A DNA stretch of 64,000 nucleotides, from positions 124,001 through 188,000 of the forward strand of contig AJFK01000612.1 in NCBI GenBank assembly GCA_000467715.1, in the 5' to 3' direction. A program made the translations under genes and the position numbers. The stretch is from Hysterium pulicare CBS 123377. Its lineage: Eukaryota; Ascomycota; Dothideomycetes; Hysteriales; Hysteriaceae. The notes under the pieces are model-generated. The model had not been told where the DNA came from. It saw nothing but the letters and a program-made list of their open reading frames with translations, and did no database searches. Numbering within the stretch: position 1 is the stretch's first letter; the number at the start of each line of letters is the position of its first letter. Of the stretch, positions 4,603-42,089 are shown piece by piece.

Positions 4603-4938
4603 GGGCTCGTGCATTGTTGGATGCGGCGACCTGTGGGCATTTTGGGTTCTGGGGTTTGTAAAATCATAATTCTCTGTTTCTAATTACCCACTCGAGATCG
4701 TCTCGGAGCTTTTTGAATGATCACCTGGCGTTGCAAGTTAGTTTCATTCCCAGACAGATCTTGCTTTCGGTAATCGACAACGTTGCGCAGTGGTACCCGC
4801 CGACGCCTCCCCTGAGTATACACGATGCAATATCAGTCGTGGTTGAACAAATGCTTCCCAATAATCTGTAAGTTCGATGGATTACGTGAAGTAATCGATC
4901 TTTGACTACAAGAGCCAAAAAAATGTTATTTTAAATTT
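4603..4938. other. 3' flank of the kinase gene
   Basis: Non-coding; becomes strongly AT-rich after about 4915, leading into the A/T run that ends the tRNA unit on the other strand. Confidence 0.45.
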
Positions 4939-4947
4939 AAAAAAAAA
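4939..4947 (-). terminator. Pol III terminator of the tRNA-Ile gene
   Basis: Nine As on the + strand read as T9 on the tRNA strand, 7 nt beyond the discriminator base. This is the expected place and form for an RNA polymerase III terminator and argues that the tRNA gene is a whole transcription unit. Confidence 0.75.
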
Positions 4948-4969
4948 GGAGTGATAGTCCTGGTGGGGT

Positions 4970-5021
4970 CTATAATATAGTTAGATTTTGTTACCAATCT
5001 ACAATTTTCTCATGATCTTAC
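4970..5021 (-). other. Spliceosomal-intron-like insertion inside the tRNA T-loop
   Basis: On the minus strand this 52-nt segment begins GTAAGA, has CTAAC at 4984-4980 and ends TATAG, with 10 nt between the branch motif and the end. Size and signals match the protein-gene introns nearby (for example 51, 52, 51 and 54 nt). Precise removal joins TTCGA to ACCCC, giving a canonical T-loop TTCGAAC flanked by perfectly paired GTGGG and CCCAC. tRNA splicing endonuclease recognises anticodon-loop introns, so it should not remove this one. The insertion also splits the Pol III B box after GGTTCGA. Confidence 0.75.
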
Positions 5022-5042
5022 TCGAACCCACGGCATCCGCAT

Positions 5043-5076
5043 TACCAGATGAAGGCCATATGAATCTGACGAGCCA
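5043..5076 (-). other. Canonical tRNA intron, 34 nt
   Basis: It sits between positions 37 and 38 of the tRNA-Ile(UAU), the universal site for nuclear tRNA introns. It begins TGGC like other tRNA-Ile(UAU) introns and holds an ATA triplet able to pair with the UAU anticodon. Confidence 0.75.
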
Positions 5077-5112
5077 TATAAGAACGGCGCGCTACCACTG
5101 CGCCACAGGACT

Positions 5113-5727
5113 TTTTTGAGTCACAACTGGATCTCAGAATTGGAGAAAGTTTAAATTCAAAAAAATTATAATGCTTATATAGGTGAATTTTAAGAATGAT
5201 CTCACGCCCCTAGACACAAATCTTAACCCAATAGGGTTATGCTAGTAACTGAGGGTGTCGTCCGCTCAATTAAAGGGAAGGTGTGTGGAACAGGAGGCAC
5301 CACCCCCGCACATGACGATTGGTGGGGCAAGCAACCTCCACACTCTCTCACAGGTCCAATCGACCGAACTACAAGCCACTCACCGTTGGCTTCGGAGAGG
5401 AAGTGCCAGTATATAAATCATCTTGTCTTCGACGGCACACCAAAGGAAAGAAGGCAGGTTCAGTTGAGAGCTTATTGCAACTCAAACTTCAAATCCGTAG
5501 TAAGCTGTTTCAATTGACTTCATGCAGCCTCTTAACTCTTTTACCTGGACTGAATCCATTTGCTCTTTGAAGTCTTAGCATCTTATTCGACTGTTGGATG
5601 CACTATCAAACACACCATTCCCTCAAATTGCCGTTGAGAACCACTACAACTCCATACATTCGCTAACTTCCCAAGCACGACATTACAACACTTGAATAAT
5701 AAAGATCTACGACAAGAGACTTTGATC
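5113..5727. promoter_or_regulatory. Leader region of the S9 peptidase gene and 5' flank of the tRNA
   Basis: 615 nt. TGAGTCA (Gcn4/CPC1-type) lies at 5117-5123, four bases from the tRNA 5' end. A TATA-like TATATAAAT lies at 5410-5418, about 310 nt before the peptidase start. Short ORFs here (5239-5570) show no family features and are more likely leader sequence. Confidence 0.4.
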
Positions 5728-41130: not shown

Positions 41131-42089
41131 ATGGATGCGAAAGAGGTGGAACTTCGAGGCAAGGCCATCACCAAAGCATACGCTGGCGGCGAACCCCCAG
41201 CCAACCTGCTGAAACTACTATCCGACCTCCGCAAAGGCGTACGTGCCACCGAGGACCTCCTGCGCCAGACACGCATAGGGGTCACTGTCAACAAATTGCG
41301 CACGCACAAGGACCCCGCAGTAGCCAAGGAGGCGAACGAGCTGGTGTCGAAATGGAGGAACGACGTTGGAAAGAATAGAGGAGGAGGAGCTGCTACTCCC
41401 AAGGGTGCTAATGGGGCCTCAACACCAGCCCCGGCTACTACACCGTCACCCGCACCTTCGAAGGCCAAGGCTAAACATAATGTGGCACCGGAGAACCGCT
41501 CTCATAAGACGGATAAAGTGAATTACCAAGTCACGGGCAATGAGATTCGAGACAGTTGCGTCAGGCTGATGTACGACGGTCTGGCGTATATGTCTGAAGA
41601 CCGTAAGGCAGACAACTTGCAAGTCACAAATGTCGCGTGAGCTAACAATTCCTTCGAATAGTCCCAGAAGAAGTGCTTCGTATTGCTCGAGATGTCGAAA
41701 CAGCAGCATTCAAGAAACTCGGACCAGAGAACACGTCAGAGTACAAGACCAAGATCCGTTCGCTATTCCAGAATCTGAAGAACAAGTCAAATCCCCAATT
41801 GCGGAAACGGGTCCTTTCTGGCGAAATCACACCAAGCCGCTTCATTACCATGTCACACGACGAACTAAAGTCAGCCGAACGCCGCGCTGAAGACGAGCGA
41901 CTAGAGAAGGAGAATATGAACCAGGCGATGGTTGCGCAGGTTGAGAAGAGTATCAGTGCCAGCTTGCAGTGCGGCAAGTGCAAGCAAAAGAAGGTCAGCT
42001 ATAGCCAAGCACAGACGAGGAGTGCCGACGAACCGATGACAACTTTCTGCGAGTGCATGAATTGCGGTAATAGATGGAAGTTCTCATAA
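41131..42089 (+). CDS. DST1: Transcription elongation factor TFIIS
   Basis: Exons 41131-41602 and 41662-42089 give 299 residues, the usual TFIIS length. Domain I (about 1-78) is the LW-type helical bundle. A Pro/Ala/Thr linker leads to domain II (about 135-250, IRDSCVRLMYDGLAY to LSGEITPSRFITMSHDEL), which binds RNA polymerase II. The C-terminal zinc ribbon has Cys pairs CGKC and CMNC around the acidic hairpin RSADEP, whose Asp-Glu stimulate transcript cleavage. All key residues are intact. The 59-nt intron has a GTAAGG donor and a GAGCTAACA branch. Confidence 0.95.

Follow-up and report, generated by a model that had tools for sequence, protein, structure and literature searches.

A spliceosomal-type intron in the T-loop of an apparently single tRNA-Ile(UAU) gene of Hysterium pulicare

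The gene and its two interruptions

The window, i.e. the whole stretch of 64,000 nucleotides that we analysed (Hysterium pulicare CBS 123377, contig AJFK01000612.1), carries on its minus strand, at 5112-4955, a tRNA-Ile(UAU) gene interrupted by two introns; the anticodon is UAU from the cloverleaf as well as from ARAGORN, and the mature part counts 72 nt with the discriminator A. Its neighbours, to judge by the look of their ORFs, are a protein kinase-like gene on one side and an acylaminoacyl-peptidase-like gene on the other. The 5' exon (5112-5077) holds the 5' strand of the acceptor stem, the D arm and the 5' half of the anticodon arm, the anticodon TAT lying at 5080-5078. The middle exon (5042-5022) runs from A38 through the 3' strand of the anticodon stem, the variable loop and the 5' strand of the T stem to TTCGA; the 3' exon (4969-4955) brings the remaining AC of the T-loop, the 3' strands of the T stem and of the acceptor, and the discriminator A. 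Once the introns are removed, ARAGORN and the structure both give a complete cloverleaf with the UAU anticodon, A37 and discriminator A.

The stems AGTCCTG/CAGGACT (acceptor, 7/7 pairs), GCGC/GCGC (D, 4/4) and GTGGG/CCCAC (T, 5/5) are perfect, and the discriminator is followed by TCACTCC and then by nine T (4947-4939), the Pol III terminator, just as a reading of the sequence only had described them for a minus-strand tRNA gene. The sole flaw seen in the gene is a T.T mismatch at 31-39, which leaves the anticodon stem with four pairs out of five. Aligned with L029, a tRNA-Ile(AAU) gene from this genome, the body of the gene is equal at 52 of 74 columns, and the agreement takes in the GCGCGCCGT run, the D arm and the wobble pair U30.G40.

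The same reading had announced two interruptions, and both are there, the one in the T-loop exactly at its coordinates. The first, at 5076-5043, is an ordinary anticodon-loop intron of 34 nt at 37/38, the canonical position of tRNA introns, with boundaries set from the cloverleaf; ARAGORN unaided draws there an intron of 15 nt only, together with a distorted variable region. The second, 52 nt at 5021-4970, splits the T-loop between tRNA positions 58 and 59, away from the canonical site.

Splice signals and register of the T-loop insert

The 52-nt insert starts with GTAAGA, holds CTAAC and ends with TATAG, as had been read from its letters. Each of these signals is that of a U2-type intron: GTAAGA (5021-5016) fits the 5' splice site GTRNG, CTAAC (4984-4980, branch A at 4981) fits the branch motif CTRAY, and the TAG ending at 4970 is a YAG 3' site. 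The likeness in size to the mRNA introns of the neighbourhood, claimed beforehand, also holds: the insert has 52 nt and a branch distance of 12, against 51-80 nt and 11-20 in ten introns predicted in the window, a comparison informative for length and spacing only since these introns were themselves picked by signals and frame. They were defined by GTRNG, CTNAY, YAG and a joined frame that stays open, at a permitted length of 42-100 nt and branch distance of 8-27, which gave 10 groups from 12 candidates; we used this strict set instead of that of an earlier loose finder, whose 51 groups (from 256 candidates) include many that look false. The G+C content is 25% in the insert and 56% in the other 106 nt of the gene. 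The general style of introns and genes gives the impression of a filamentous ascomycete.

How easily could such signals arise by chance? When the 52 nt were shuffled 200,000 times by mononucleotides, the combination of a GTRNG start, a CTRAY near the end and a YAG end never arose. The strict pattern GTAAG..CTAAC..TAG, with 45-70 nt, occurs twice in all over the 64,000 positions and both strands; these two occurrences are the insert itself and 41603-41661, the latter being also a predicted mRNA intron by the frame test. On the other hand the loose pattern GTRNG..CTRAY..YAG occurs 32 times in the window (2.5e-4 per position), and a genome-wide pattern for a GT-AG insert between GGTTCGA and ANYCC had one match, the tRNA-Ile(UAU) gene, vs four in reversed controls. 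The letters of the insert alone are thus not rare, and what counts is their exact place within a complete tRNA gene.

In this respect the register is informative. Removal of the 52 nt in the GT-AG register restores the T-loop TTCGAAC, as proposed earlier, with the T-arm junction GGGTTCGA|ACCCCAC. Three of eight registers (58/59, 59/60 and 60/61) restore a TTCRANY loop, and only 58/59 combines it with GT-AG. ARAGORN finds nothing while the insert is present and calls tRNA-Ile(tat) once it is removed; however, among the shifts listed ARAGORN also accepts removal at registers -3 to +1, and hence does not single out the GT-AG register. With the insert present, a search of 4900-5160 at E up to 10 gave two matches, neither of them to the Rfam tRNA model. 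When a covariance model was made from Ile tRNAs, the locus itself included, it matched 5112-5007 with 31.7 bits, in an alignment that puts the 3' strands of the T arm and of the acceptor inside the insert. Folding of the precursor gave a z of -1.58, 16 of 200 shuffles being at least as good.

The precise fit of the insert bears on several other readings. An assembly error, by which a stretch of mRNA intron would have been placed in the tRNA gene, might be invoked for a draft assembly of 596 contigs; nevertheless the junctions agree base for base with the T-loop, the joins are without repeat by eye, and a source copy of the 52 nt was not found, the single match of the 261-nt region against the assembly at E 0.001 being the region itself. 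We hold such an error to be hardly credible. The same search led us to reject an introner copy, since at E 0.001 the assembly has the region only once.

Spliceosomal introns normally belong to Pol II transcripts, their usual home, so that one could also imagine a longer Pol II transcript (a non-coding RNA or a UTR) that owns the intron and has the tRNA as a passenger exon. Against this stand the nine T directly after the tRNA, intron boundaries that match the T-loop exactly, and the joined frames, all three of which hold stops over 150 nt to either side; together they make a passenger exon very improbable. A protein-coding exon was ruled out by these same stops.

The insert might instead, like those of Cyanidioschyzon merolae and Crenarchaeota, be an ectopic intron of the tRNA type, to be cut at a bulge-helix-bulge (BHB) by the tRNA splicing endonuclease. 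T-arm introns do exist, one of them even in a tRNA-Ile(UAU), according to the consulted part of PMC9602550. Yet in the three registers restoring TTCRANY no more than 2, 2 and 3 of the 4 pairs of the helix can form, in a test that covered the simple BHB (two 3-nt bulges around a 4-bp helix), and the GT, CTAAC and AG signals would all be accidental. Furthermore the eukaryotic enzyme is tuned to the 37/38 site, as stated in the part of PMC3978253 that was consulted. This reading therefore appears very unlikely to us. The four helix pairs form together only in a register giving the loop TATAGAC, and a BHB intron was rejected. As far as sequence can tell, the insert is a real spliceosomal-type intron within a tRNA gene.

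Promoter elements, copy number and the working of the gene

TFIIIC needs an A box and a B box. The A box TGGCGCAGTGG (5105-5095) is intact. As for the B box, the insert starts directly after GGTTCGA, and the box as it stands on DNA, GGTTCGAGTAAG (5028-5017), has for tail the letters of the 5' splice site; it fits GGTTCGANY in its first nine letters and, as GGTTCGAGT, carries AA in place of the last CC of the consensus. The very same 12 letters, GGTTCGAGTAAG, are found again in this genome right after the terminator of L033, a U6 gene. Directly after the T-run of L033, and likewise of a second U6 gene, L034 (each at 1596-1630, on G000:C383 and C300 respectively), stands the B-box-like GATGGTTCGAGYAR; these two places account for both genomic matches of the 17-letter motif (control 0), and GATGGTTCGAGYARNNG occurs twice, both times behind U6 matches (control 0). 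An external B box is known to work for the U6 gene of budding yeast, and judged from their position those of L033 and L034 would be functional. The identity with the L033 motif suggests that Pol III could still be recruited to the tRNA-Ile(UAU) gene, whose 5' splice site may, from its letters, double as a tolerable B-box tail. That the insert does so little damage to the DNA B box speaks for a working rather than a silenced gene.

The longest T run inside the gene is of two; the lack of longer runs has weak weight, as TTTT is also absent from 1522 of the 2554 stretches of 158 nt that were sampled in the window. Upstream, we found no TATA-like site near -30; there are TATA-like sites at -69 and -58, and the usual position of a Pol III TATA is nearer. 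The two sites lie in an AT-rich stretch at 5181-5166 of the minus strand.

The five U6 matches of the genome (47 of 2278 candidates scored) have no intron in their aligned core, and all 20 listed tRNA loci have a continuous TTCRA, the model used to find them requiring an unbroken T arm. Nothing else seen in the genome, thus, supports spliceosomal introns in Pol III genes. Among the U6 matches, L033-L037, two may be pseudogenes: L036, whose 3' part is divergent, and L037, which is without a clean T-run.

Are there other tRNA-Ile(UAU) genes? Their count, which had been asked for at the outset, is nil by pattern and sequence searches of the 37,200,777-base assembly. The 31-letter 5' half of the gene, with up to three mismatches, matched the whole assembly once, at its own locus (control 0), and the 72-nt mature sequence retrieved only its own two pieces. 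A pattern of the A box plus UAU had five matches vs 16 in reversed controls; the four that are not our gene have neither an ARAGORN tRNA nor a GNTTCRA in the next 200 nt. With the anticodon left open, this pattern misses two of the 20 tRNA loci of an Rfam search, L018 and L019, and fits the other 18, while at L014 the letters it takes as anticodon differ from those of ARAGORN; as the pattern misses some known tRNA loci, a further copy could still be missed, e.g. one with an odd A box or in an assembly gap. The Rfam search itself, with 63 of 1229 candidates scored, gave an incomplete tRNA set. The sister pattern for AAU had four matches (six in controls); one of the four, L029, is a tRNA-Ile(AAU) according to ARAGORN. 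Relatives of the locus were also sought in a viral collection (0 matches and, in a second search, none of 34 candidate stretches confirmed) and in a bacterial and archaeal one (0 matches), collections which have no bearing on conservation in fungi. The tRNA-Ile(UAU) gene thus appears single in the genome.

This count is of importance for the most serious of the rival readings, that of a recent pseudogene: an intron would have landed in a T-loop that is since unspliced, and the gene would be dead yet too young to have decayed, AUA being read by an inosine tRNA-Ile. An inosine-bearing tRNA-Ile could indeed also read AUA, so that losing the tRNA-Ile(UAU) gene need not kill the cell; a tRNA-Ile(AAU) gene is present in the genome, and the gene under study has its one stem mismatch. 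On the other hand the other stems, the A box, the core of the B box, the anticodon, the discriminator and the terminator are all intact. Moreover, a redundant pseudogene would have an intact synonymous gene elsewhere, and none was found in the assembly; and ATA makes about a fifth of the Ile codons (64/310) in the open frames of at least 350 codons of the window. We consider a dead gene unlikely, although less so than the readings discussed above.

Altogether, the anatomy suggests that the tRNA-Ile(UAU) gene is probably a working one. We judge it likely, without being certain, that this is the cell's tRNA-Ile(UAU) gene, made by Pol III and spliced by two machineries that each take out an intron of a different class. 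The course of events that we infer is the following. Pol III would transcribe the gene from the A box and from a B box ending in the letters of the intron 5' splice site. The spliceosome would then take the 52-nt GT-AG intron out of the T-loop, and the tRNA splicing endonuclease (Sen), with the ligase, would take out the 34-nt intron at 37/38, the end product being a normal 72-nt tRNA. The T-loop intron would probably leave first and the anticodon intron later, as enzymes that act afterwards require the T arm. As for its origin, the intron might have come by reverse splicing or by intron transfer. On balance we lean towards a nuclear tRNA for which the spliceosome and the tRNA splicing endonuclease are both indispensable, and whose gene uses the 5' splice site also as B-box tail.

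Relation to known introns and to other tRNA genes

Several non-coding RNA genes of fungi are comparable. In fission yeast, splicing is part of the maturation of U6, whose intron is attributed to reverse splicing in the part of PMC10484740 consulted. As in fungal U6 snRNA genes, the tRNA-Ile(UAU) gene would bring an mRNA-type intron into a small structured RNA that Pol III transcribes. U6, however, is part of the spliceosome, which the same part of PMC10484740 states as the reason for the insertion, and a tRNA is not; besides, tRNA-Ile(UAU) needs a second and different splicing enzyme. Fungal U3 snoRNA genes also combine a structured non-coding RNA with ordinary spliceosomal introns, experiments being cited for two species in the consulted part of PMC5832005; there, at variance with the tRNA case, these introns are almost always found in the 5' stem-loop. 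Finally the nuclear rDNA of lichen fungi carries spliceosomal introns that are likewise short and outside mRNA genes, and yeast removed one of them from Pol I rRNA transcripts; these concern Pol I and rRNA, and the part of PMC8527467 consulted names no tRNA case.

The site, as distinct from the type of intron, has precedents. The tRNA-Ile(UAU) of C. merolae has introns in the D, anticodon and T arms, those of the T and D arms being thought to be removed ahead of the anticodon one (PMC9602550, in the consulted part); by analogy, the order T arm before anticodon is plausible for our gene, which shares with it the isoacceptor and a T-arm site alongside an anticodon-loop intron. The nucleomorph of Guillardia theta has short T-arm tRNA introns of 3-24 nt, and in other eukaryotes insertions in the T arm are taken to be pseudogenes, since they mostly occur in one gene out of many synonymous ones, as put in the consulted part of PMC4090602. 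This reason, in so far as that part of the paper gives it, was not found to apply to tRNA-Ile(UAU) in the assembly. In the consulted parts of these sources, the ectopic T-arm introns of C. merolae, the G. theta nucleomorph and Crenarchaeota are either tied to a BHB or of unknown mechanism, and none is described with GT-AG and a branch site. Thus a T-arm tRNA intron is already known from algae and nucleomorphs, and what is new is the type of the intron.

A literature phrase search on tRNA phrases gave no match, and a spliceosomal intron in a tRNA gene was absent from the matches listed, in a search of titles and starts of abstracts with most subscription journals and bioRxiv outside its scope. 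There is a fair chance that this tRNA gene is the first with a spliceosomal intron. Such introns are known from mRNA, rRNA, U3 and U6 genes, and tRNA would add a further class of Pol III transcript. If our reading is true, two unrelated splicing systems act on one small RNA, and the supply for AUA decoding is under the control of the spliceosome. Two questions become testable: can the spliceosome work on a pre-tRNA from Pol III that is uncapped and tightly folded, and do tRNA genes, too, gain introns by reverse splicing? As both ARAGORN and the Rfam tRNA model missed the gene, tRNAs apparently missing in fungal genomes could hide more such cases.

Anticodon introns are frequent in this genome (L002-L021 and L029): ARAGORN gives an intron to 11 of 21 genes that it calls, e.g. 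a tRNA-Gly(UCC) gene, L017, whose intron is of 67 nt, and the tRNA-Ile(AAU) gene L029 has an intron as well. At L012, L015 and L016 the anticodon of ARAGORN differs from the letters expected from the spacing to the D arm, e.g. gat by ARAGORN vs CTG for L016, a disagreement probably due to short introns.
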